Source of the DNA: Hyunsoonleella ulvae
GTDB lineage: Bacteria > Bacteroidota > Bacteroidia > Flavobacteriales > Flavobacteriaceae
Length of the DNA: 64,000 bases
Assembly: GCF_016827605.1 (NCBI RefSeq)
Contig: NZ_JAEPJQ010000001.1
Span: forward strand, 620,001 to 684,000
Direction: 5' to 3'
How positions within the stretch are numbered: the stretch's first letter is position 1; each line of letters starts with the position of its first letter. Shown one piece after another: positions 15,204-30,600 of the stretch. The notes under the pieces were generated by a model. The model was given only the letters and a program-made list of their open reading frames with translations, ran no database searches and was not told where the DNA came from. The translations under genes and the position numbers were made by a program.

Positions 15204-16217
15204 TTATGATTTACTATTCACAATAGCATCTAATAACTCAGGAGATATATTAAGATTCCCTATTTTATCAGCATTCTCAGCCAACTCTCTGAAAGCTAAA
15301 GCTATGTTATTACTTGGGTCATTTCCATTATTACTGATAGCCATTAGCGTTTTCCAATCTAGTTCTTTGTAAGGCTTCAATCTAGCATTAAGAACATACT
15401 CATTCATGTCAGCCTCTTTCTTTTCATTGGTTACCTGAATATCTATTAACTCTTTTTTCTGTTCTTCTAAAGCTATGCTAGAAGTCATTCCCATCTCTTT
15501 AAGTTTCTGCTCGTTTTGCTGCTTTACGACATCTGTTTCCATCTTCTTTTCAACAATTTGTTTTTGCTTCTCTTCAACAGCTATCTCAGTATTAAGTTCA
15601 CTTTCCTTTATCATACGTTCTTGCTCCACTGCAAAGTTTCTACGCTCGTATATAGCTTGGTCAGCTTCCTTTTGTAAAGACTCTCTCATTTGAGCTTCTA
15701 AAGCACGAGCCATTTCGGGATTAGGAGTGACACCTAGCACATTTACACTTAATATTTCTAGACCAAGCATTTGAACAGTCTTAGATTTCTGAATACTCTC
15801 AAATATTTCAGTTTCAATTGCCTCAAGCTGTCGCAATGCTTCTTTCAAACTTAAACGTTGTATAATAGATGCACTAGCTGTTTGAGCCTCATTAATGATA
15901 CGTTGTTGAATTTTTTCGTGGTCATTCTTCAAATACTGTTTTTTCTTATTTACAGTAAAATCTAACGTTTCTGCTAGTTGTTTTGGATTTTGAATCTTAT
16001 ATGTAACCTGCCCTTGTAAAGTAACTTCTTGATAGTCTTTTGTAGTTTCATTGAATACAAATTGAAAATCATTACTCTGTACAGGAATAGAAACAATTGA
16101 TGAATTTGGAGAAAAATAAAAGAATGATAAACCTCTTCCTTCTTTCTTGATTTTACCTCCTTTATAATGAATCACATAGTTCATTGAATCGAATTTGATA
16201 TAATTTATTCCTAACAT
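15204..16217 (-). CDS. SPFH/band-7 domain protein
   Basis: 337 aa. Residues about 20-185 form an SPFH (stomatin/prohibitin/flotillin) domain; about 180-275 are a charged Glu/Lys/Gln-rich coiled coil; the tail ends NISPELLDAIVNSKS. There is no N-terminal transmembrane helix, unlike classical stomatins, so it may be cytoplasmic or peripherally attached. SPFH proteins assemble into large rings or scaffolds. First gene of the downstream half of the NAD/ADP-ribose operon, with its own promoter and two operator-like sites in the 125 bp before it. Confidence 0.85.
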   Translation of the reverse strand: MLGINYIKFDSMNYVIHYKGGKIKKEGRGLSFFYFSPNSSIVSIPVQSNDFQFVFNETTKDYQEVTLQGQVTYKIQNPKQLAETLDFTVNKKKQYLKNDHEKIQQRIINEAQTASASIIQRLSLKEALRQLEAIETEIFESIQKSKTVQMLGLEILSVNVLGVTPNPEMARALEAQMRESLQKEADQAIYERRNFAVEQERMIKESELNTEIAVEEKQKQIVEKKMETDVVKQQNEQKLKEMGMTSSIALEEQKKELIDIQVTNEKKEADMNEYVLNARLKPYKELDWKTLMAISNNGNDPSNNIALAFRELAENADKIGNLNISPELLDAIVNSKS

Positions 16218-17054: not shown

Positions 17055-20000
17055 TTAACTTAACTGTAATTTGCCAATAGTAGTTTTAAGTGTTTTTACT
17101 TCTTCCCACTTTTCTAGTTTATCTTTTGATAACTGACTTAATTCTACTTTAGGTGAGCTTAGCTTTAATTCCACGAATATCTCTAGTAATTTCTTAACTC
17201 CTCTGATAGGCTCATCATTCATATTCCCAATCATGTTATCTAAAAGACTTAACAATGCGTCATTATGCTTCTTGGATATATTGAATAAGTTTGCTGTCAA
17301 TAAGTCTGTAAATCGTTTAAGAGGGGCATACTCACCCAATTCTAATTTACCTAAAATTTGACCTAGTAATAAATTGTTAATTTTGTTTTCAGAGTTTGCT
17401 TTAATCCATATCTCAGCAGCAAGTTCTCTTGCCACTTTATGACTACACAAAAGTCCGGTTGCCAAAAACAGATATGTAGATTCCTTAAAATCATTTCTAT
17501 ACCAGATTTCATAAAGTCCTTTTAGCAAATTGACCATATTCTTTTTACTGGTTTCATCAAAAAAAGTAGATTCTTTAAGATTATTATGAATAACATGACT
17601 CAAGAACATACTTGGATTATTTGGTAAGAGAAATAAAAATTTCACATCATCATGCGGATGAATTGTAGTATAATATTTTTGCTTTTTAAAGTACATGTAA
17701 TCATAAATACTGCTAACTTTAATCTTCTTTTTCTTTTTATTGAATACACCTATAATACTTGAAACAATTGATTCTGATTCACTCTTTTGATTATTAAAAT
17801 CTTTAAATTTTAACTCTTTGCTAGTTCTAAGGAATTCTCTTGATCCTTGTTTACCCTTACTGTAGTCATATCTATTGTGATAAATATCCCTAGGTTTACA
17901 CTCCCAATTATAAAACCCCATTTCTTTGTTTAATGGATTGACTAAATATTTTTGAAAGTATTTAATTTCCTCAGCATCATTTCTACTCAACACACTTTGA
18001 AGCCATAATTCTGGTCTTGAAATATCTACATCTTGAATTTTCAATTGGTTAAGATGATACTTTAAAACCTTTTTAATATCAATGTCTTTTATCATATTAA
18101 TATTCTCAATAATATCAAATGAATATTCATTTATTGGCAACCTCCCCATCGCAATTTGAAAATCGTAACGATTAATCTCTTCATTGCTTTTTTCATATGA
18201 AATGATTCTGTCAATTAAAGTATTAGGAGCAATCCAACATGGTGCATGTGTTGGTGTAGACATTAGATCTAGAGTCAAACCTTTCTTAATTAGAGATTTA
18301 GACTTTATAAATAAAAAATGGTGTATTTGATATATGTAATCTGGAATAGGTTGGTTTTCTATTTGTCTTAATCTTTCCTTATAATGGGAACTATAGTATC
18401 TATCTTCCTTAAACTTTTTGATTTTTTGGGTCTTAGCCTTTTTAAAACTTGCGAGTTCAGAAGGATACTCTTTCATTAAAATTTCAGCAAAATCATTTAT
18501 GTAGTAGGCTGCTTCCGATTCCAAATTTCCAATCCGGCTATTCCAATCAAAATTCATGGAAAGGTCAAAAGAACGCTTAAATATAGGCTCCAGTTTAGCA
18601 ACATTATCTTTATTTAAAAGCGGATAAAGTTTTGGCAAATAGCTAAGCAATAAATCTATATGATACACTTCATTATTATCAATAGACTGACTTACAAAAA
18701 AGATTAAATCATCTAATGATTCAAGCTTGGGCAATTCTGTTTCTATTGATAAAATTTCCGTTTCTTCTATATCATAGATTTCTTCTTCAACTTCTTCTGA
18801 GGTTTCAATGTATGCCTTTAAAATCTCCCTTGACGAGTGGAATAGACTATCTGCATATAGATTTACTTCATCAAACAGCTCTTGTTTTTTAGGGTCTCCG
18901 TATTTCTCTATTATTTTCGCTGCTCTTAATTGAATTTTCTCATCAACATTTATCAAAGCTTCTGCTGCTTTTTCACATACAAAAATATTGAAAGCTTTAT
19001 GAGTTTTAGCAATTTTATCTAAAATCATAAGTGTTGAATTAACTACGGATTTTGTTTCAGAGTTTAAAAGAATTGATGCATTTTCAACAAAGACTTCATG
19101 CTTAAACTTTTTATGATTAGCAACTAGTTTAAAATATTTAAGAACCGTATTTATTACCTTGGAATGAGGTGAATTTAAAGCTGTAAAAAATTCATCTTGT
19201 AAATTCAATATTTCATCTTGAGAAGGACTTAATTTTATTAACAAATCAAAAAACCAACCGCTGAGTGTTTTATTAAACCCTTTGGTGGATGAATAGATTG
19301 TAGCAATTAAAACCCTTTTTCTGTCCAACTTATTTTCATCTGTTAGATTGGCAATTGTATCAATCCATATATCATTCCCTCCTTTATAATTCTCTAGATG
19401 TAAATAGTTATAGTAGTTATTAATTGTAGATTCTTCTTCAAACAAAAACCATATATGTTCATCTAATGTCTCTTTATACTTATGAAGAACTTCAGGCTTA
19501 TAAAAATTTCTGTTTTTATTTTTCTCTCGCTTATTTTCAACAATGGCATTTGGAAGTTTTGCCACAATTAAAGATTGAGATGGTTGCAAAAGACCTTTTT
19601 TGAACAACACCATTAATTTATCATAATTTACATGCCATGGTAGTTCTTCATTAATGAGGTCTCCATACCATTTGGGAAGGTACCAAGGGATGATATTTTC
19701 CAAATAATAATCATCCGTACAGGAATGGGCTAGTCCCGCTTTTTTAGCATCACTTTTATTAAAACAAACAAAACAGGCTTTATTTGTAAGTTCTCTTTGA
19801 GTTTCAGTATGAGAAGGTTTATACGATTCGAATATACCGAATTTGCTTTTTTCTTTAACAATTTTATATCCAAAAACCTCTTTTCTAAAAGCTCTTAGAA
19901 ACGGAACAAGTTCCTTTTTATCTTTTGGCGTAAGTTTTTTTAAAAATGGGATGATGTCTCTTTCCTTAAGGACAATAGTTTCTAATTCTTTTTCAAGCAT
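17055..20000 (-). CDS. Large DUF6493-like / HEAT-like protein
   Basis: 981 aa from ATG at 20000 (a TTG two codons earlier overlaps the SWIM stop). Predominantly alpha-helical, with helical-repeat-like stretches around residues 200-450 (HEAT/ARM type) and a Cys/His cluster near the N-terminus (CFVCFNKSDAKKAG then AHSC). The C-terminal third contains conserved-looking LLLGQILGKLELGEYAPLKRF. I believe it belongs to the Bacteroidota DUF6493 group, which occurs next to SWIM-finger genes as here; this recalls the E. coli yehI-yehQ pair (HEAT/WGR protein plus SWIM protein). Function unknown, probably a scaffold. Confidence 0.7.
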   Translation of the reverse strand: MLEKELETIVLKERDIIPFLKKLTPKDKKELVPFLRAFRKEVFGYKIVKEKSKFGIFESYKPSHTETQRELTNKACFVCFNKSDAKKAGLAHSCTDDYYLENIIPWYLPKWYGDLINEELPWHVNYDKLMVLFKKGLLQPSQSLIVAKLPNAIVENKREKNKNRNFYKPEVLHKYKETLDEHIWFLFEEESTINNYYNYLHLENYKGGNDIWIDTIANLTDENKLDRKRVLIATIYSSTKGFNKTLSGWFFDLLIKLSPSQDEILNLQDEFFTALNSPHSKVINTVLKYFKLVANHKKFKHEVFVENASILLNSETKSVVNSTLMILDKIAKTHKAFNIFVCEKAAEALINVDEKIQLRAAKIIEKYGDPKKQELFDEVNLYADSLFHSSREILKAYIETSEEVEEEIYDIEETEILSIETELPKLESLDDLIFFVSQSIDNNEVYHIDLLLSYLPKLYPLLNKDNVAKLEPIFKRSFDLSMNFDWNSRIGNLESEAAYYINDFAEILMKEYPSELASFKKAKTQKIKKFKEDRYYSSHYKERLRQIENQPIPDYIYQIHHFLFIKSKSLIKKGLTLDLMSTPTHAPCWIAPNTLIDRIISYEKSNEEINRYDFQIAMGRLPINEYSFDIIENINMIKDIDIKKVLKYHLNQLKIQDVDISRPELWLQSVLSRNDAEEIKYFQKYLVNPLNKEMGFYNWECKPRDIYHNRYDYSKGKQGSREFLRTSKELKFKDFNNQKSESESIVSSIIGVFNKKKKKIKVSSIYDYMYFKKQKYYTTIHPHDDVKFLFLLPNNPSMFLSHVIHNNLKESTFFDETSKKNMVNLLKGLYEIWYRNDFKESTYLFLATGLLCSHKVARELAAEIWIKANSENKINNLLLGQILGKLELGEYAPLKRFTDLLTANLFNISKKHNDALLSLLDNMIGNMNDEPIRGVKKLLEIFVELKLSSPKVELSQLSKDKLEKWEEVKTLKTTIGKLQLS

Positions 20001-20002
20001 AT

Positions 20003-21349
20003 TCAAATATCTTTTGCTTTTTTCTTTACTGCTAAAATATGTTTACAAGCGCCTCGCTCACCTTGGTTTTTACTAAACCAAGTACAAGTACATCTTTGTT
20101 CGTCTCCATTTATAACGACATAATGTTGAACGCCACTCCCCTCTACTTTAGCTTCTATTTTGTTATCTTTCTTTAGCGTAATTTGAACCTTATTTTCTTC
20201 TAAAAGCTTCTCTGCACCTTTGAGTCTTGGGTTCAATGACAAAATTCTTTCTAGCTTAAAAGGTAACCTTCTGTAAAAGAACCCATTTTTAGCTAAGTCA
20301 TACCCCAATAATCCCATAGCTGATAATTTAGTGGACAGTTTTTCTATTTTGGATATATCTATCCCTTCCTCAAAAGACATTAATGCAGGATTAAACTCCT
20401 GATTGGTATAAGAGTAATTATCAAATGCTTGCACTAATGAATCTGGCAAGTCTTCTATTAAAGATTCTAAAGCAGCACCCTCACCTGAAAAGCCTCTCCA
20501 AAAATCTCTTGAAACAGAAAACACAAAATTCAATTCGTCAAAACATAAAATAAAAGTTACTGATTGCATGTCCTGATGCGGAAAAACTTTTAGTTCATTT
20601 ATCAATGGAATAAGTGACTGAAGTAATTTCAATCTATGAATACCACCTATACAAACAGCATTTGATGCCTTAAGAGGGCTAAATAAATATTTGCTCCCTC
20701 GCTTTATAAGATAATAGTCTGTCTTTACTTTTCCAGCAGGAATAGTTTTAAATAATTGAATGGCTTGAATTCGATTTAGAGTTTGCGCATAATCGGACTC
20801 TGAAAAATAATGTTGTACTGTTGTTAAACCCTTAATCCATTTACTAGGTAATGGTACTTTACGTTCTACAAAACTTTCTCCTCCTTTGTGAAACCCGACT
20901 TCTTTTTGACCAACAGATAAAATAAGGTCGTCATTTTTCTTGATTTTACCCAGTTCTGAAATTAAAGGTGTATTAAAATCAACATTGGTAGTTCCATTCT
21001 CTATAAATTCTCCATCTTGTCCATTTTCCAATACATCAACTCTCGCATAAACCCCTGCACAATGGGAAAACCCTTCAAATCTTATTTGATTGTTACCTGC
21101 CGTAACTATTGGGTCTTTTAATAATGCTAATTGAAAAGGCGATAAATTAAAACTTGACTGAACAATATTAGATAAGGTTATCAAACATCTTGACAACTCA
21201 TAAGGGTTATTCAATTTCCCCCAGAAAAAACAAGGAGAACTTCCTTTGTCAACCTCATTAAATTTTGAAAGCAGAAGGTTCTCCTTACCTTGCTTTTTTT
21301 CTATACTAGAAAGTGAATTGTATTTGTAACTTAATGTGTCTACAGACAT
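20003..21349 (-). CDS. SWIM zinc-finger protein
   Basis: 448 aa. The C-terminal SWIM finger has C420, C422, C435 and H437 (CTC ... ACKH), a CxCx(n)CxH zinc site that binds nucleic acid or protein. The N-terminal ~400 residues are of unknown fold. Its stop lies 2 bp from the DUF6493 ATG, so the two are co-translated. SWIM proteins of this kind occur beside MoxR ATPase/VWA ternary systems in other bacteria, but no MoxR or VWA gene is adjacent here. Confidence 0.85.
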   Translation of the reverse strand: MSVDTLSYKYNSLSSIEKKQGKENLLLSKFNEVDKGSSPCFFWGKLNNPYELSRCLITLSNIVQSSFNLSPFQLALLKDPIVTAGNNQIRFEGFSHCAGVYARVDVLENGQDGEFIENGTTNVDFNTPLISELGKIKKNDDLILSVGQKEVGFHKGGESFVERKVPLPSKWIKGLTTVQHYFSESDYAQTLNRIQAIQLFKTIPAGKVKTDYYLIKRGSKYLFSPLKASNAVCIGGIHRLKLLQSLIPLINELKVFPHQDMQSVTFILCFDELNFVFSVSRDFWRGFSGEGAALESLIEDLPDSLVQAFDNYSYTNQEFNPALMSFEEGIDISKIEKLSTKLSAMGLLGYDLAKNGFFYRRLPFKLERILSLNPRLKGAEKLLEENKVQITLKKDNKIEAKVEGSGVQHYVVINGDEQRCTCTWFSKNQGERGACKHILAVKKKAKDI

Positions 21350-22983: not shown

Positions 22984-23275
22984 TAATAGAAAGAGATAGG
23001 TACAGTATTACGGATTTGTAACAATAATTAAGGTAAAAAGAAAAACCTATAATTCAATTGAATTTTAATTGTATTAAGGGCTCTTTATATCTAATGATAT
23101 TGAGATTTAATCAATAAGTAACTGAGTCACTGCAGCTGTATTAGTCGCCCACTTCAAGTCACAACATTCATCAGCATATTCAGCATCAGAAACAATTTCT
23201 AATCCTAGGCTTCAGCTTTAAGCGTTAGGCGATTACTAATACTCAATTTACTATTTAATTTATTTTTAAAATTAG
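22984..23275 (-). pseudogene. Intergenic region with a possible coding remnant downstream of the tRNA-like array
   Basis: On the minus strand, bases about 23215 to 23107 encode LGLEIVSDAEYADECCD then LKWATNTAAVTQLLID and a stop; a one-base shift near 23210 would join it to upstream LSISNRLTLKAEA. The composition looks protein-coding but no start is visible and I do not recognise the family. It could be the tail of a gene truncated when the array arose. The rest of the region shows nothing else. Confidence 0.3.
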
Positions 23276-23348
23276 CAGGAATAGCAAGATTCGAACTCGC
23301 ATCTTTGGGGGTCGTAACCCAATATTTTATCCATTAAACTATACTCCT
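23276..23348 (-). tRNA. tRNA-Arg(ACG)-like, last unit of the array
   Basis: 73 nt. Acceptor AGGAGTA pairs with TATTCCT (one G-T), discriminator G, no encoded CCA. The D arm and T arm (GAGTTCGAATC) are near normal. Anticodon ACG sits in an arm that is perfect only with an 8-nt loop (stem TTGGG/CCCAA); a 7-nt loop gives a mismatch. Least altered of the 3'-end units. Confidence 0.7.
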
Positions 23349-23354
23349 AAATTA

Positions 23355-23530
23355 TGGAACAAACAGGAATCGAATACCGAATCAAGTCCGGCACAGGCTC
23401 TGTATCTTCGGATTTTAACTCAATGAATTCTATTTGATAAATAGGGTTCGTTGAATTCTCAAGTTCATTTCAGTCCGTCGCATTGACCAACCCTTCGACT
23501 TCGCTCAGGACAGGCTTTTGCTATTGTTCC
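23355..23530 (-). tRNA. tRNA-Phe(GAA)-like with inserts in D, anticodon and T loops
   Basis: 176 nt enclosed by a perfect 7-bp acceptor (GGAACAA/TTGTTCC). Three insertions: a 25-bp palindromic REP-like block in the D loop (23491-23515), a 54-bp element in the anticodon loop (23414-23467) and a CCGG-type hairpin in the T arm (about 23366-23392). Removing the 54-bp element leaves CGGA-CTGAAAA-TCCG, a canonical Phe loop with anticodon GAA. No encoded CCA. Confidence 0.7.
23414..23467 (+). repeat. 54-bp anticodon-loop element, copy 1 (in Phe-like unit)
   Basis: Read on the plus strand it begins TTTAACTCA, has the core ATTTGATAAAT and TTCGTTGAATTC, and ends TCA followed by another TTT. It aligns without gaps to the copies at 24451-24504 and (inverted) 24007-24060. 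The core folds back on itself as a hairpin. Orientation is antisense to the host tRNA. Confidence 0.85.
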
Positions 23531-23533
23531 TTT

Positions 23534-23608
23534 TGGGGTGACTTCGGGATTCGAACCCTGTTCTTCTCATTCACAGTGAGATGTTTTACCAAATAAACTA
23601 AAGACACC
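23534..23608 (-). tRNA. tRNA-His(GUG)
   Basis: Includes G-1 opposite C73, the tRNA-His identity pair, and an encoded CCA (23534-23536). Anticodon arm TCTCA-CTGTGAA-TGAGA gives GTG. T arm CAGGGTTCGAATCCCG is normal. The acceptor has one T-T mismatch (positions 4:69), otherwise the most normal unit of the array. Confidence 0.85.
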
Positions 23609-23616
23609 ATATGTTG

Positions 23617-23689
23617 TAAACTCGATAGAACTCAAACCTATACCTTCCCGCCTTTAGCGGGATATGCTCACCATTTACATCACGAGTCT
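23617..23689 (-). tRNA. tRNA-like unit with anticodon AAA and a palindromic anticodon stem
   Basis: 73 nt cloverleaf: acceptor AGACTCG/CGAGTTT, D stem ATGT/GCAT with a GG-containing loop, T arm ATAGG-TTTGAGT-TCTAT, discriminator A. The anticodon arm TCCCG-CTAAAGG-CGGGA would read AAA, an unusual A34 anticodon; this arm equals the palindrome CCCGC-N-GCGGG seen as intergenic repeats in relatives, so it may have replaced the original arm. Confidence 0.6.
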
Positions 23690-23692
23690 ATA

Positions 23693-23862
23693 TACTCCAC
23701 CTTGGATTAGTTCGTATGGTAAATATTTCAATAAATATGTACTCATGAATGCTATGCATTTCGAACCAAGACTACACGGGGCTTAAATCAGAGCTTCGCT
23801 CGGTGCCTTCGTAAAAGCAATTGTTTTTACTCGACAATCTCTTCCAGTTGGGCTAGTGGAGC
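23693..23862 (-). tRNA. Grossly expanded tRNA-like unit (170 nt), identity unclear
   Basis: Acceptor GCTCCAC pairs with GTGGAGT, discriminator A, and the T stem CTTGG/CCAAG (23766-23770 with 23701-23705) is intact, but the T loop starts TTCGAA and then carries about 52 extra bases containing two hairpins. The D/anticodon part also contains two palindromes (GTAAAA/TTTTAC and GAGC/GCTC). A TTTAAG segment could be a UAA (Leu) anticodon but no clean stem supports it. Confidence 0.5.
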
Positions 23863-23868
23863 ATAGTA

Positions 23869-23938
23869 TGGGGAGAGAGATTCGAACTCTCAAAATCCTG
23901 ATTCTAAGTCAGGCGTGTTTGCCAATTTCACCATCCCC
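23869..23938 (-). tRNA. tRNA-Leu(UAG)-like with shortened acceptor and no long variable arm
   Basis: 70 nt. Anticodon arm CCTGA-CTTAGAA-TCAGG (TAG) and D arm GTGAAATTGGCAAACAC are Leu-like, but the variable arm is reduced to about 5 nt where Leu tRNAs have a long arm, and the acceptor appears to be 5 bp (GGGGA/TCCCC) stacked on a 5-bp T stem GAGAG/CTCTC. Confidence 0.65.
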
Positions 23939-23952
23939 ACATTTATTAATCG

Positions 23953-24092
23953 TATTCCGTAGGATTCCGAGCATGTCTCGGACCAACCCCTAATTCCACA
24001 TAGAAATGAGCATTCGAATTCAACGAATCTGATTTATCAAATCTATACACCTGAGTTAAAGTGTGGCGTCTTAACCATTTGACCAACGGAAC
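23953..24092 (-). tRNA. tRNA-Glu(UUC)-like with 54-bp element in the anticodon loop and a hairpin in the T loop
   Basis: 140 nt. Acceptor GTTCCGT/ACGGAAT and D arm TGGTCAAATGGTTAAGACG match bacterial tRNA-Glu. As written the loop would show TTA, but excising the 54-bp element (24007-24060) leaves CCACA-CTTTCTA-TGTGG with anticodon TTC, agreeing with the Glu body. The T loop carries CCGAG-ACATG-CTCGG (about 23968-23982). Confidence 0.7.
24007..24060 (-). repeat. 54-bp anticodon-loop element, copy 2, inverted (in Glu-like unit)
   Basis: Same element as at 23414 and 24451 but read on the minus strand, i.e. sense to its host tRNA. Flanked by AAA (plus strand) on both sides. Shares TTTAACTCA, ATTTGATAAAT, GATTCGTTGAATTCG and CTCA with copy 3; the left arm differs (GGTGTATAG). 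Confidence 0.85.
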
Positions 24093-24098
24093 ATTTCG

Positions 24099-24141
24099 TC
24101 TGAGAAGCAGGATTAACTTCGTTTTTCCTGCTAGGTCTCAG
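24099..24141 (-). tRNA. tRNA remnant: acceptor/T-arm minihelix without D and anticodon arms
   Basis: 43 nt: CTGAGA pairs with TCTCAG and GCAGG with CCTGC around a 15-nt loop; nothing remains of D or anticodon arms. The 3' end (CCTGCTTCTCAG then ACGAAA) is a duplicate of the 3' end of the Pro unit at 24181. Just upstream (24147-24175) is a separate near-perfect AATCAAAT-type hairpin. Confidence 0.5.
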
Positions 24142-24180
24142 TGCTAATCAAATTCAAGTAAACTTGATTTGATTGTTTCG

Positions 24181-24252
24181 TCTGAGAAGCAGGATTCGAA
24201 CCTGCGACCTCTCGCTTCCAAAGCGAACAAACAACCACCGTTATCTTCCCAG
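24181..24252 (-). tRNA. tRNA-Pro(UGG)-like
   Basis: 72 nt. Acceptor CTGGGAA/TTCTCAG (one G-T), anticodon arm TCGC-TTTGGAA-GCGA giving TGG, T arm GCAGG-TTCGAAT-CCTGC perfect. The D arm is weak (AAC/GTT with a GGTG loop). Discriminator A, no CCA. Confidence 0.75.
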
Positions 24253-24257
24253 AGAAA

Positions 24258-24323
24258 GTACCACACGGTTACCAATTATAACCTATAGCTATTCGAGAGA
24301 CAGTCGAATAACTATTGTGGTAC
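24258..24323 (-). tRNA. D-armless tRNA-Asp(GUC)-like unit
   Basis: 66 nt closed by a perfect 8-bp stem GTACCACA/TGTGGTAC. One extended anticodon arm TATTCGA-CTGTCTC-TCGAATA shows U33 and anticodon GTC; a T-arm-like GGTTA-TAATTGG-TAACC follows. There is no D arm, an architecture known for some metazoan mitochondrial tRNAs but abnormal in bacteria. Confidence 0.55.
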
Positions 24324-24326
24324 AAG

Positions 24327-24409
24327 TGGAAGTGGTAGGACTCGAACCTACAAGCTCCGAAGAGACCAGATTTACAGTCTGGCGAGCCAACCAATTGCTC
24401 AACACTTCC
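24327..24409 (-). tRNA. tRNA-Tyr(GUA)
   Basis: 83 nt. Acceptor GGAAGTG/CACTTCC, anticodon arm CCAGA-CTGTAAA-TCTGG (GTA), class II variable arm (TCTCTTCGGAG), T arm GTAGG-TTCGAGT-CCTAC. Discriminator A. Close to normal. Confidence 0.82.
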
Positions 24410-24412
24410 TTT

Positions 24413-24542
24413 TGGAGACAAGGATGAGATTCGAACTCATAAATGACGGATTTAACTCAACGAAAGCTATTTGATAAATAGGATTCGTTGAATTCGTAAA
24501 CTCATTTGCAATCCGTAGCCTTAACCATTCAGCCACCTTGTC
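24413..24542 (-). tRNA. tRNA-Cys(GCA) with 54-bp element in the anticodon loop
   Basis: Acceptor GACAAGG/CCTTGTC, discriminator T (the Cys identity base U73) and encoded CCA (24413-24415). D arm TGGCTGAATGGTTAAGGCT and T arm TGAGTTCGAATCTCA are normal. The 54-bp element (24451-24504) splits the anticodon loop; without it the arm is CGGA-TTGCAAA-TCCG with anticodon GCA. The insertion sits on the 3' side of the anticodon, near the 37/38 position used by archaeal and eukaryotic tRNA introns. Confidence 0.8.
24451..24504 (+). repeat. 54-bp anticodon-loop element, copy 3 (in Cys unit)
   Basis: Starts TTTAACTCAACGAAAG, core CTATTTGATAAATAG, then GATTCGTTGAATTCG, ends CTCA followed by TTT. Best-folding copy: AACTCAACGAA pairs with TTCGTTGAATT (a G-T/A-type mismatch allowed) around the inner CTATTT/AAATAG stem. 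Confidence 0.88.
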
Positions 24543-24553
24543 TTTCTTTATTG

Positions 24554-24642
24554 CGGAGAGCAAAGGAATCGAACCTTCATCACGCCTCGGCGTGAACTTG
24601 ATTAGCAGTCAAGCGTAACAAACCAATATTTACCTACTCTCC
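24554..24642 (-). tRNA. tRNA-Ser(GCU)-like
   Basis: 89 nt. Acceptor GGAGAGT/GCTCTCC, discriminator G (Ser identity), anticodon arm CTTGA-CTGCTAA-TCAAG (GCT), T arm AAGG-TTCGATT-CCTT. The long variable arm is a palindrome CACGCC-GA-GGCGTG similar to the block that replaces the T arm of the next unit upstream. The D arm is poorly paired. Confidence 0.75.
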
Positions 24643-24651
24643 ATTATTTTG

Positions 24652-24749
24652 TCTGAGAGATCACGCTCTAGCGTGACAACCTCTCGCTTCCAAAGCGAGT
24701 AAACCAATCATCCCTTCGGCTACGCTCAGGACAGGCTTCATCCTCTCAG
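24652..24749 (-). tRNA. tRNA-Pro(UGG)-like with palindromic D-loop and T-arm replacements
   Basis: 98 nt. Acceptor CTGAGAG/CTCTCAG and anticodon arm CTCGC-TTTGGAA-GCGAG (TGG) are intact. The D loop holds a 25-bp REP-like block (24712-24736) that differs at two positions from the block in the Phe-like unit (23491-23515). The T arm is replaced by TCACGC-TAGA-GCGTGA, so there is no TTCGA loop. Confidence 0.65.
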
Positions 24750-24754
24750 TTTTG

Positions 24755-24841
24755 CGGAAGGAGTGGGAATCGAACCCACACGAGTCGTTAACTCCTAACT
24801 GTTTTCAAGACAGCGACCACCACCTATTGGCTTGTCCTTCC
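24755..24841 (-). tRNA. tRNA-Ser(UGA), first unit of the array
   Basis: 87 nt. Acceptor GGAAGGA/TCCTTCC, discriminator G, anticodon arm CTGT-CTTGAAA-ACAG (TGA), class II variable arm, T arm GTGGG-TTCGATT-CCCAC. It begins only 13 bases after the U-tract of the terminator-like hairpin at 24859, leaving no room for a separate promoter. Confidence 0.82.
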
Positions 24842-24858
24842 AAATCATATCCATAAAA

Positions 24859-24884
24859 AAAGCACCTCTTTTTGGGAGGTGCTC
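24859..24884 (-). terminator. Terminator-like hairpin directly before the tRNA-like array
   Basis: Minus strand: AGCACCTC-CCAAAAA-GAGGTGCT followed by seven T. Ends the module that begins near 25078; the array could be reached by read-through or after processing of this hairpin. Confidence 0.8.
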
Positions 24885-25078
24885 TACTTTTTATTGTGTT
24901 ATATTAAATCAATTCATAACATAAGTATTCTCCCTAAATCGCAACATATTTTGCTCATAACTATAAAACAGCTCTAAGTACTTCGGCGAGCGAAGACATA
25001 AACTAAATGATAAACTATGTTGTAAATGAGATGTCATTATTCTTTTATTATTTGTTGTTTTTTGACATTGCAAATATG
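24885..25078 (-). ncRNA. Candidate small RNA or small ORF, module 2
   Basis: About 220 nt from a promoter-like CATATTTGC (25070-25078 region, minus strand) to the terminator at 24859. It resembles module 1 at 25285-25477: both start CATATTTGCAA, share TAGAGC-GT and AATAT-GCGATT-AGG blocks, and end with a hairpin plus TTTTTTTATGGA. A 42-codon frame (ATG at 25037, MTSHLQHSLS to NTYVMN) covers much of it. RNA or peptide cannot be decided. It also contains a CTTCG-CTCGC-CGAAG hairpin. Confidence 0.4.
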
Positions 25079-25284
25079 AAACCAATTTTTGAAACATACA
25101 AGAAAAATTTCAATTTAAATTATTGATTATCAATTACTTATGTTGTTTTTAAACAATAGAATTCCTGTCCGTATATCTACGGATATTGAACATTTTATAC
25201 AACAGTCTGTCTCCCAATTGTTTTCAGTTTCAATTTTCTATGTTACCTTTTTCTAGCTTCTAAACATTATTTTAAAAATTTCCA

Positions 25285-25477
25285 TAAAAAAAGCGCCCAG
25301 TTTTACTTGGACGCCTAAAATTTATAATGATTTATGGTCAATAATTGCTGCTAATTACTTCAAAAAACCACATAGCGTCCTAATCGCTCACTATATTCTG
25401 AACGAAAAACATAGAGACACGGCTCTATTTGTTGACTTGTATGTAATCTTTGTAATATCATTTGCTTTGCAAATATG
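25285..25477 (-). ncRNA. Candidate small RNA or small ORF, module 1, with terminator
   Basis: Starts after the nucleotidyltransferase gene with TTTG and CATATTTGC on the minus strand and ends in the hairpin AGGCGTCC/GGGCGCT plus seven T (25285-25316). A 33-codon frame (MILQRLHTSQQ to RYVVF) is possible. Related to module 2. Lies between the RNA-repair operon and the tRNA-like array. The stretch 25079-25284 between the two modules shows nothing else. Confidence 0.4.
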
Positions 25478-25492
25478 AGACTTTTTTTCAAA

Positions 25493-26554
25493 TCAATTCT
25501 TTTCTTTATAAAAACGCTCTCTGGTATGAATTAATAAATCGTTTATTTTATCTAAGTCTGGTCTTTCAGGCAAACTAGAAGCAGCATATAACGCTTCTAA
25601 TTCTAATTTTCGCTGTTCTGCCCAACTCACCAACTCGTCATATTCAAACTTACCATGCTTTACATCTAATAGGAATTCCCTATCCGAACGCCTTACATTA
25701 ATTATTCTTTCGGAAGCTATCTCCTTTGCCATGTGCAATAGCCTAAACGTATGCATCATGTTTTTGGAATCGTAATTTTTACCATGAGACACGGTTGTTT
25801 TATAGCGTTCTTCATTGCGTTTTTCAACCCAATCCCAATATTCCTTGTACTTTTTGCAATATGTTGAATAACCATCTTTGTTAAAGAATAGCATACCTAT
25901 AGCTTCTTCTCCCTTCGGTATAGAACTTAGAGCAACATCATTGGCTCTTTCATTCTTTATGATGCCTTTATAAGGAATCTCTAAACTATGATATAGATTA
26001 TTACAATCTTTAAGATGTGAAATATTAGCTATCCCACAATTTTCTTGTTTTATGTTTTTAATTTCCAAGAAAGTGCGCAAAGGCATTGTTTTTCCGCTTT
26101 CATACACCAAACAAAAATCTAAAACTGACTTGCGTTCCTTTTCAACTGGGTTTACAATTTTCTTTTCTAAACCTCTTGCTTTTTTGATTTGAGCATAAGC
26201 GTAATTAGCGAATGACTTTTCACATTGTTTAGACAAAAAATCATCTAATTTTATGTCATCAAATATCGGGTGCTTGTAAAGTATACATTCATCAGGCACA
26301 TTCAATAATTCTAAGATATTGGGATTATTTTTTGAACAAAGTTCTATAAACTTTCGTAGTTCGTAATAAACAATATCGTTAGATTCATTATTGATTTGAC
26401 CAATATAATCCAACCCATAAAATTGTGCTTTAGGAAGAATGAACACACCTCTTATATCTGTATCTGATGTAGGTGTGTCCAATCCATAAGCTCTACTTCC
26501 ACTTATACATTCAAAAATAATATGCCCTGATGCTTTTAATGCTTCTAGTGTCAT
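25493..26554 (-). CDS. Nucleotidyltransferase of the DNA polymerase beta-like superfamily
   Basis: 353 aa. N-terminal minimal nucleotidyltransferase core: ISGSRAYGLDTPTSDTDIRG has the GS motif (19-20) and the two catalytic aspartates (D31, D33). A helical C-terminal region with conserved NMMHTFRLLHMAKEI follows. Such enzymes transfer a nucleotide to RNA ends or to proteins. Last gene of the RNA-repair operon; its start overlaps the RlaP-like stop (TAATG). Probable substrate: broken RNA ends, by context. Confidence 0.85.
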   Translation of the reverse strand: MTLEALKASGHIIFECISGSRAYGLDTPTSDTDIRGVFILPKAQFYGLDYIGQINNESNDIVYYELRKFIELCSKNNPNILELLNVPDECILYKHPIFDDIKLDDFLSKQCEKSFANYAYAQIKKARGLEKKIVNPVEKERKSVLDFCLVYESGKTMPLRTFLEIKNIKQENCGIANISHLKDCNNLYHSLEIPYKGIIKNERANDVALSSIPKGEEAIGMLFFNKDGYSTYCKKYKEYWDWVEKRNEERYKTTVSHGKNYDSKNMMHTFRLLHMAKEIASERIINVRRSDREFLLDVKHGKFEYDELVSWAEQRKLELEALYAASSLPERPDLDKINDLLIHTRERFYKEKN

Positions 26555-27300
26555 TATTTTAGTGTTTTTAAAAACAGCTCATTAAAATCAGCTGGATTAG
26601 ATTTTCTATTAGCTAATTTATCTTTAACGCTGTTATTTTCATTAACTATATGTTTTACTAAATGTATTAAATCTGCTTCTACAGGGTCATTGCTTTTTTC
26701 AACACGTTCACTTTTTAAAGCGATAAGTGCATCTAATTTTGAATGATAGCTATCATCGATTAATGAATACATCTCCCTGAACAACACAGGTGGAATCGTT
26801 TCATTTTTATAAATCCAATTAGCACAAAGCGCAGTTCGGATAGCATAAAAGAAACTCTTCAATGTCATTTTTTCTGAGCCCAATGTTTCCTCAAAATTTT
26901 TATTCATACTATGAAAATGATAAAATCCAGAAACAGGGTTAAAGTTAGCATTTGCAACTTTTTTTATGGCATTTAAGAAATCATTATCTGCCCGATATAC
27001 AATTGGCGAAAATAACCATCCTGTGAAAGATGCGTTTGACTTTGCCAAAAGTCGCAATGCTTTGCGGATATCCCAACCTGAACCATCCAAATCATCTTCA
27101 GTCATAAATTGTATGGTATCGGTTTGCTCCCAAAGGTTTAAATACCATTCTTCTGAGTATTTGTAAACAAATCGTATATCATAATCGGAATCCGGAGAAG
27201 CAAAGCCCCAAGCCCTACTTCCTGATTCAACTGCGAATAAGATTTCTATGTTTTTATTTCGCTCTATTTCTGAGAGCTTATTTAATATTTTTGTTTTCAT
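26554..27300 (-). CDS. RlaP-type nucleotidyltransferase (RNA-repair pathway, Pol-beta family)
   Basis: 248 aa. Catalytic block VESGSRAWGFASPDSDYDIR at 24-43 with D39 and D41; the following DDLDGSGWDIRKALRLLAKSNAS segment is typical of RlaP-like proteins, which are linked by gene context to RtcB RNA repair. It overlaps the upstream membrane-protein gene by 23 bp and the downstream nucleotidyltransferase by 1 bp. Two different nucleotidyltransferases side by side suggest successive steps in rebuilding RNA ends. Confidence 0.88.
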   Translation of the reverse strand: MKTKILNKLSEIERNKNIEILFAVESGSRAWGFASPDSDYDIRFVYKYSEEWYLNLWEQTDTIQFMTEDDLDGSGWDIRKALRLLAKSNASFTGWLFSPIVYRADNDFLNAIKKVANANFNPVSGFYHFHSMNKNFEETLGSEKMTLKSFFYAIRTALCANWIYKNETIPPVLFREMYSLIDDSYHSKLDALIALKSERVEKSNDPVEADLIHLVKHIVNENNSVKDKLANRKSNPADFNELFLKTLK

Positions 27301-27765
27301 TTTCTAAATTTTTTACAGACCTTTCAATTATATCTATGAAAGATTTTGCATCATTTTTTCTTTTATAAAAGTGCTTGAAAGTACCGAAATGAATTTTATG
27401 AAAAAGCTGTCCGTTTTTAATTTTAACCAACCTTGGGAAATTTTGACCATTACAATCTTCAATCATATGATTGATTAAAATATCATTCTCATAATGATTT
27501 TTAACTTCAACAAAAGTTAGTTCTTCAAATTTATCCTTTAGCAAGGAAGAAAAATCGACATTATTATACCTAGCATACATAAAAAATATTTGATTATCAT
27601 TTTCATGACACAATCTTTTTAGATTTTTTTTGTCCTTTATTTTACTTATCAAATACCGTAAATAAAATATTATTCCAAAGGGAATTAAAACGATAACTCC
27701 TATAATTATCAAAGGAATAACAATAGCGATTTTAAAAATATCTGATACAGCTTTAAACAGTTTCA

Positions 27766-27766
<1 letters not shown>
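27278..27766 (-). CDS. Membrane-anchored protein of unknown function in the RtcB operon
   Basis: 162 aa. A long hydrophobic segment (about residues 10-38) is followed by basic KIKDKKNLKR and a ~115-residue soluble domain containing RYNNVDFSSLLKDKFEE and HKIHFGTFKHFYKRK. I do not recognise the family. Coupled to RtcB (stop/start overlap TAATG) and to the RlaP gene (23-bp overlap), so it belongs to the repair operon and may tether it to the membrane. Confidence 0.65.
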
Positions 27767-29163
<1,397 letters not shown>

Positions 29164-30410: not shown

Positions 30411-30411
30411 G

Positions 30412-30496
30412 TACTGAAGGCGGGACTTGAACCCGCACGGCCATAATGGCCATTGGATTTTAAGTCCAACGTGTCTACCAATTCCACCACTTCAGC
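30412..30496 (-). tRNA. tRNA-Leu(UAA)
   Basis: Canonical class II cloverleaf: acceptor GCTGAAG/CTTCAGT, anticodon arm TTGGA-CTTAAAA-TCCAA (TAA), variable arm TGGCCATTATGGCCG, T arm GCGGG-TTCAAGT-CCCGC, discriminator A, no CCA encoded. A useful normal control for the aberrant array 5.5 kb away. Confidence 0.95.
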
Positions 30497-30528
30497 AACT
30501 TAATTGGTATATTTTAAGAAAGTATCAG

Positions 30529-30600
30529 AGCGAAAGACGGGATTTGAACCCGCGACCCTCACCTTGGCAAGGTGATGCTCTACCCCTGAGCTACTTTCGC
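30529..30600 (-). tRNA. tRNA-Gly(GCC)
   Basis: Canonical: acceptor GCGAAAG, D arm AGCTCAGGGGTAGAGC, anticodon arm TCACC-TTGCCAA-GGTGA (GCC), T arm GCGGG-TTCAAAT-CCCGT, discriminator T. Same orientation as the Leu tRNA 32 bp downstream, probably co-transcribed. Confidence 0.95.

Follow-up and report, generated by a model that had tools for sequence, protein, structure and literature searches.

Textbook cases of transcription attenuation sense one amino acid or a few, and known leader peptides repeat the codons of one or few amino acids. The attenuators of amino-acid operons (trp, his, phe; Phe_leader, RF01859) resemble the locus described here in having a translated short ORF (predicted here), an intrinsic terminator whose 5' arm may pair alternatively, and leader codons that match what the operon supplies. 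They differ in that a leader here lists up to 18 tRNA species (arrays L043 and L045), and in that the operon product is the tRNAs themselves. The Rfam Phe_leader model matched the second leader module of our locus at 22.5 bits (E = 0.28), far below its cut-off of 55. Damage to tRNA, the signal considered below, is inflicted by many anti-phage nucleases, colicins and toxins.

The Anabaena trn operon is described in excerpts of PMC10272220 as a silent extra tRNA operon that is turned on under translational stress, with rtcB in the same regulon. The spare tRNA operon and the rtcB link are shared with our locus; control differs, being exerted there by TrcR, a ribbon-helix-helix repressor (PMC10272220, excerpts), and the same excerpts mention no attenuation, leader, terminator or antitermination. 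Judged from these excerpts, the trn operon appears to be the nearest functional parallel. The RtcR-controlled RNA repair operon is also alike, as an RNA-repair ligase operon reported to be regulated by damaged tRNAs, but it has the CARF-type activator RtcR, whereas here a WYL-domain gene stands beside rtcB and the array has cis leaders (PMC7790460, excerpts). Phage tRNA clusters have been proposed to escape anticodon nucleases, their extra tRNAs replacing those depleted by tRNases; they are phage-borne, with no translation-coupled switch mentioned in the excerpts, whereas the arrays here lie in bacterial genomes (PMC10264068, excerpts). Against this background, the two modules described below (M1 and M2) are, with good confidence, read as two ribosome-mediated transcription attenuators in tandem that guard an array of reserve tRNAs.

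The window (the whole stretch of 64,000 nucleotides from Hyunsoonleella ulvae that was analysed) lies within a 4.06-Mb genome, and the nearest relatives of its RtcB are mostly from Flavobacteriaceae. On the minus strand the order is rtcB, a protein without Pfam match, two RlaP nucleotidyltransferases, M1, M2 and the tRNA array; the WYL-domain gene adjoins rtcB and points away from it.

25493..29151, minus strand: RNA-repair genes upstream of the modules, whole block
27766-29151, minus strand: RtcB
27278-27766, minus strand: hypothetical protein without Pfam match
26554-27300, minus strand: RlaP
25493-26554, minus strand: second RlaP
23275..24841, minus strand: tRNA array, the supposed regulated output (ARAGORN, Rfam)

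An RtcR-type rtcBA repair operon has rtcA and the sigma-54 activator gene rtcR beside rtcB; the neighbours of rtcB in the window are instead the two RlaP, the protein without Pfam match and a WYL/WCX-domain protein. The modules belong to the tRNA array and not to the repair operon, because in L102 and L107 modules and array stay together, with RtcB and RtcB2 separating the modules from RlaP.

Within the array, ARAGORN called tRNAs for Ser-tga, Ser-gct, Tyr, Pro, Leu-tag, Phe and His, and further tRNA matches were unclear or made by Rfam only. The array is partly degenerate in the window's genome; several relatives have 11-18 recognisable tRNAs. In the genome stretches examined, 34 tRNA genes lie outside the array, plus two at 30411-30600. 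This host set includes versions of the array's Ser, Tyr, Pro, Leu-tag, Phe and His tRNAs, from which the array's tRNA bodies differ in sequence. Two array tRNA genes seem, by eye, to carry insertions: a Cys-like one of 127 nt (24416-24542, minus strand; matched by Rfam, not by ARAGORN), lengthened within the anticodon arm, and a Pro-like one (24650-24750, minus strand), interrupted by CGGCTACGCTCAGGACAGGCTT. The inserted sequence in these two genes may reflect decay or introns.

An initial annotation, made from the letters of the window, had placed two related modules between the repair operon and the array. Both are present on the minus strand and begin, as it said, with CATATTTGCAA (at 25477 in M1 and 25078 in M2); they are tandem short units, each with a promoter-like box, a short frame and its own terminator. 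The flavobacterial -7 promoter consensus is TAnnTTTG.

25470..25477, minus strand: M1 promoter -7 box CATATTTG, by sequence, with one mismatch to TAnnTTTG
25360..25461, minus strand: M1 leader ORF of 33 aa, MILQRLHTSQQIEPCLYVFRSEYSERLGRYVVF (ATG frame; related frames in six loci)
25373..25381, minus strand: M1 arm A AGGACGCTA, codons 28-30, predicted to pair with the terminator 5' arm (duplex -13.7, z -2.8)
25308..25316, minus strand: M1 arm B AGGCGTCCA, the terminator 5' arm
25286..25315, minus strand: M1 intrinsic terminator GGCGTCCAAGTAAAACTGGGCGCTTTTTTT, with ATGGA after it
25102..25223, minus strand: conserved element of ~115 bp, between the M1 terminator and the M2 promoter
25071..25078, minus strand: M2 promoter -7 box CATATTTG
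24909..25037, minus strand: M2 leader ORF of 42 aa, MTSHLQHSLSFSLCLRSPKYLELFYSYEQNMLRFRENTYVMN (ATG frame)
24929..24935, minus strand: M2 candidate arm A, AGGGAGA, with a weak potential pairing (5 bp) to CTCCC in the terminator
24855..24884, minus strand: M2 intrinsic terminator GAGCACCTCCCAAAAAGAGGTGCTTTTTTT, with ATGGA after it, 13 nt before the first array tRNA

For M2, an extent of 24859-25078 had been given; the upper end stands, and the lower end falls a few bases before the end of the T-run. The TAGAGC-GT and AATAT..GCGATT(T)AGG blocks were found in both modules, and M1 arm A (core AGGACGC) sits in the GCGATT-AGG block. The proposed relatedness of M1 and M2 held for the whole modules (local score 76 vs. 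36.4±6.3, reached by 0/500 shuffles), mostly through the likeness of promoters and terminators. The interiors scored 39 vs. 30.2±5.1, which 31/500 shuffles reached, so that they are only marginally related, and similarity between M1 and M2 was dropped as the main evidence. What is conserved across relatives is architecture and codon content. DNA homologous to the module stretch over nearly its full length occurs in 3/119 other genomes, at 83-90% identity.

Both peptide frames were found by tblastn, in the same order, upstream of tRNA arrays in L010, L011, L012, L086, L102 and L107 (M2 match weak in the last two, E = 0.008). Arrays were defined as runs of at least 4 tRNAs, and 36 were collected among the loci examined, 26 from 80 RtcB loci and 10, the window included, through module DNA searches. 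As in known attenuators, a short ORF stands just before an intrinsic terminator upstream of the presumed regulated genes, with at least one such unit at 36/36 arrays (M1 type at 34, M2 at 31, and a third type, M3, with a leader of 25 aa, at 5). Terminators take the form AAGCGTCCAA..TTGGGCGCTT in M1, AAAGCACCTCCC..GAGGTGCTTT in M2 and GAATCCGAAGCA..TGTTTCGGATTT in M3. Leader ORFs are 33 and 42 codons long in the window and 33-46 in relatives. They stop 16-44 nt before the terminator in the 36 arrays (22-44 nt for M1 and M2), a range that is partly selected, since the choice of ORF starts favoured lengths close to a target and required a terminator gap of 15-46 nt; the starts of the first leader of L042 and of the L053 M2 are possibly wrong. 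A protein gene lies between leaders and array in at least four loci (L048, L051, L052, L084), and probably in L017.

A strict M1-terminator pattern matched in 5/395 genomes of the class; it is too strict for a census and misses the window's own M1, the match in the window's genome being a gene-end terminator. As hold-outs, 3/4 of the other genomes had the match before a tRNA array, with leaders of both the M1 and the M2 type (L146 in the same family, L148 and L149 in other families). There the isotype was represented in the leader in 39/42 isotype-leader checks: 6/7 and 5/7 for L146, 7/7 and 7/7 for L149, and 7/7 and 7/7 for L148, which was counted by eye and whose M1 has a GTG start, outside the ATG-only scan. 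The misses were Trp in both L146 leaders and Arg in the L146 M2. Neither an array nor a checklist leader was seen in the 3-kb stretch of L147, and sites L150 and L151 (G389) had leader units with no tRNA within 3 kb.

Codon content was analyzed in non-redundant sets of 24 M1 and 24 M2 leaders, with wobble rules fixed in the script and tRNAs without a clear three-letter anticodon left out. Leader codons correspond to the operon product: M1 holds a readable codon for 229/229 array tRNA species and M2 for 224/232, eight being without a codon. The random-codon control gave 163±6 (M1) and 169±6 (M2), and frames +1, +2 and antisense gave 159-174 for M1 and 159-177 over both leaders. Synonymous recoding gave 215±3 and 214±3, with the observed value reached in 0/500 for each. 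Leaders match their own array, because array exchange between loci lowers the counts (M1, 213.6±3.0, max 224, 0/5000; M2, 209.9±3.3, 1/5000; kinship of loci left in). Mean coverage of the array's amino acids was 1.00 (M1) and 0.99 (M2), against 0.77 and 0.78 for random protein windows (0/2000). The peptide sequences diverge, and their codons amount to a checklist of the tRNAs encoded downstream. The sensing part of the leader precedes arm A: M1 residues 2-26 cover 320/323 isotypes and the remainder 160/323 (all 34 loci), and the M2 sensing part covers 264/301 with 168/301 for the remainder.

Codon choice is partly isoacceptor-specific and mixed overall. Pro codons CCA/CCG stand to CCT/CCC as 50:12 (genes 51%, p = 2e-6) and Ser codons TCA/TCG to TCT/TCC as 45:15 (genes 49%, p = 7e-5), biases that are expected since the array has Pro-tgg and Ser-tga and the host also Pro-ggg and Ser-gga. 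Within Pro, CCG outnumbers CCA 42:8 (genes 19% CCG, p = 3e-22). Leu codons showed no enrichment of CTA/CTG over CTT/CTC (38:34, p = 0.63). For Ile, ATA makes up 58/99 sensor codons (58:41; genes 24%), even though the array tRNA-Ile mostly carry the gat anticodon, which is not expected to read ATA. The leaders are also poor in Asp (0.57 and 0.53 of background), despite a tRNA-Asp in most arrays.

On the preferred reading, each leader ORF would be translated, and its codons call for almost all tRNA species of the array. As long as these tRNAs are intact, the ribosome would reach the end of the ORF and cover arm A, the terminator would form, and the array would stay off. Should a listed tRNA be lost, most likely through cleavage by an anticodon nuclease, the ribosome would stall upstream; arm A could then pair with the emerging terminator 5' arm, the terminator would fail, and transcription would enter the array and supply intact tRNA copies. 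The leaders, the terminators, the codon checklist and the position of arm A can be read from the DNA itself. From them we infer a switch of termination by stalling, tRNA damage as its signal, and a rescue of translation by the array tRNAs.

The signal could also be general amino-acid starvation, sensed as uncharged tRNA, in place of tRNA destruction. Known attenuators with the same anatomy answer to uncharged tRNA, and a leader holding most amino acids (a mean of 18.2 distinct ones in M1) would answer almost any shortage. The genes downstream, however, are tRNAs, which bring no relief of starvation, and leader content follows the particular array, as the permutation indicates, and partly also its isoacceptors, as seen for Pro and Ser. 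M1 and M2 are poor in Ala, Gly and Val (Thr being low mainly in M1), and the context is RNA repair (RtcB, RlaP, and RtcB2 with related leaders). Starvation sensing is therefore considered unlikely.

The initial annotation had also allowed that the short frames encode small proteins. The frames look real, given the narrow stop-terminator distance in relatives and the pooled pN/pS over independent pairs (0.54 for M1, 0.57 for M2); the leader peptides are constrained, but loosely. Functional small proteins with terminators as ordinary gene ends would account for frame conservation, for a Cys enrichment of 4.5-4.7 fold, and for similar terminators seen at ordinary gene ends (L145). Residue order is strongly divergent, however, while the codon set matches the downstream tRNA genes; part of that match is lost on synonymous recoding, and the ORFs stop 22-44 nt before their terminators (with 15-46 nt as the selection rule). 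Ordinary small proteins are thus highly improbable, and attenuation by the leaders is retained.

The antiterminator that attenuation would need was examined by folding. M1 arm A, in the last third of the ORF, is complementary to the terminator 5' arm. Against dinucleotide shuffles, the A:B duplex had a mean z of -2.4 in M1 (below -1 in 32/34), -1.6 in M2 (21/31) and -3.8 in M3 (5/5); the M1 of L068 and L105 are without a good arm A (z -0.1 and -0.4). In the window's M2 the best duplex lies elsewhere than the candidate arm, at codons 22-25 (AGAGCTGTTTTATA, z -0.9). An early stall was modelled with RNA free only from a mid-ORF codon and the terminator 3' arm not yet made. Upstream pairing of the 5' arm then exceeded 0.5 in 34/34 M1 (shuffles 44%), 5/5 M3 (33%) and 19/31 M2 (43%), the window's M2 being among the 12 that fell short (0.36).

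With the 3' arm made, equilibrium favours the terminator, and upstream pairing (A:B) wins in 7/70; equilibrium folding was rejected as proof of a switch on this count. Since the full-length RNA prefers the terminator at equilibrium, antitermination would have to be kinetic. In the M1 terminator stem 99.6% of cells are paired, and 6 pairs have changes on both sides (0/500 shuffles). Covariation of the 12-pair M1 A:B helix barely exceeded that of shuffles (65.9% vs. 64.6±0.8% paired; 29/500 reached the score), and the case for the M1 antiterminator therefore rests on duplex z and position; the first six pairs of the helix are well kept (150/162 cells). M2 arms were not aligned by automatic MAFFT, hence M2 is not in the pair counts. 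Leader and codon content are well supported. Because folding and covariation results were mixed, the exact antiterminator is provisional, above all in M2, the window's own included.

The spacer between the modules has three recognisable parts, a CAATTGGGAGACAG block, a small hairpin ATCCGTnnnnnACGGACAGG and a palindrome TTGATAATCAA (25123-25133); its motif is CAATTG[AG]GAGACAG and the palindrome consensus YTGANNNTCAR. The motif search gave 46 loose matches, of which 16 with first bases off the motif were dropped and 30 were left; alignment and pair counts used 20/30 rows, the window's row being without the first four columns. Two short stems are paired in 93.8% of cells, with 10 cells changed on both sides (0/500 shuffles). 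A second copy lies in the same genome (L009:4213-4327), before a TPR-protein gene. Where a true box was scored, the spacer stood 92-95 nt from the second promoter (93 in the window), and since this distance is constant the spacer fits a promoter-linked element. Our reading is that it serves to regulate the second promoter; it may be an operator, or a structured RNA, perhaps for processive antitermination.

Tandem structured small RNAs acting in trans with the repair proteins, Y-RNA-like as first suggested, are the least credible reading: the modules adjoin the RtcB operon, each has its own promoter and terminator, and the spacer has two short stems with some covariation, but no Rfam family matched at gathering score (weak matches only), the M1 and M2 interiors are marginally alike (31/500 shuffles), the signal is strongly frame- and codon-specific, and the structured spacer keeps a fixed distance from the second promoter, as a promoter-linked element would. 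A Y RNA or other known RNA was rejected, Rfam at gathering score having returned tRNA models only; in a permissive Rfam scan all matches were far below gathering score and none was a Y RNA. No TROVE-type (Ro60/Rsr) Pfam family was found among the ten neighbouring proteins scanned.

Leader units are not confined to tRNA arrays. On both strands of 80 RtcB loci, 102 leader+terminator units were counted, 101 on the rtcB strand and 1 opposite; a few of the 102 are possibly ordinary gene ends, and the L083 unit at 18702 is one. With RtcB2 defined here as <40% identity to the window's RtcB, a leader unit lies within 3 kb upstream of 20/20 RtcB2 genes (seen in L040, L045, L060, L102, L107 and others). 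Most consist of a leader of ~20 aa before an M1-type terminator, of one of ~27 aa before an M3-type terminator, or of both. Another gene often stands between unit and RtcB2, and in L068 an M2-type unit precedes RtcB2 with a tRNA in between. Related units upstream of RtcB2 are a point of likeness to the RtcB2-PrfH system, from which the present case differs in that the first leaders are mostly ~20 aa and not checklist-looking (PMC9223846, excerpts). By sequence, the RtcB2 leaders do not look like tRNA checklists, and they may sense a different fault, e.g. damaged ribosomes. PrfH-like (RF-1 domain) and PcfJ-like proteins follow other units (one of each scanned). M3 leaders also occur before a TPR-protein gene (L009, L145), including in the window's genome, where the unit is:

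L009:4375-5250 (G000:C1:1053374-1054249): own-genome M3 leader MLKYYIAFQDWSCNPELWLRLRFFL and terminator before the TPR protein

In the same locus, the gene at L009:7773-8945 encodes a putative CBASS-type nucleotidyltransferase.

We lean, by a modest step, towards a broader proposal: that codon-checklist attenuators form a tRNA-integrity alarm of Bacteroidota, in which leaders would inventory vulnerable tRNAs and be rewritten with the array, and related leaders would serve as switches of a larger regulon for RNA and ribosome repair (tRNA arrays, RtcB2 operons, the TPR-protein gene). If true, ribosome-stalling damage would be converted directly to transcription of its own remedy, a sensor of tRNA damage that needs no protein. 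Attenuation would be put to a new use by a leader that checks a dozen or more tRNAs at once and governs the expression of the very tRNAs it checks, and this would offer a reason why tRNA arrays stand beside RNA-repair genes. Each leader could serve as a genomic record of the tRNAs under attack in its lineage, and the proposal predicts the outcomes of single-codon swaps. Ribosome-mediated attenuation is already known; a multi-tRNA checklist guarding the tRNAs that it lists is, to our knowledge, new. Among the matches listed for full-text literature (outside which lie subscription journals and most preprints), there was no description of leader-peptide control of tRNA arrays.

Two further observations concern the genes beyond the array. 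An SPFH/Band-7 protein is encoded at 15204-16217 of the window, and similar-looking proteins were seen by eye downstream of arrays or leaders in L071, L099 and L103; a slipin-family gene is among the TrcR-affected genes of Anabaena (PMC10272220, excerpts). At 17055-21349, on the same strand as the array, the window encodes a DUF6493/DUF7824/DUF7825 protein and a SWIM zinc-finger protein.
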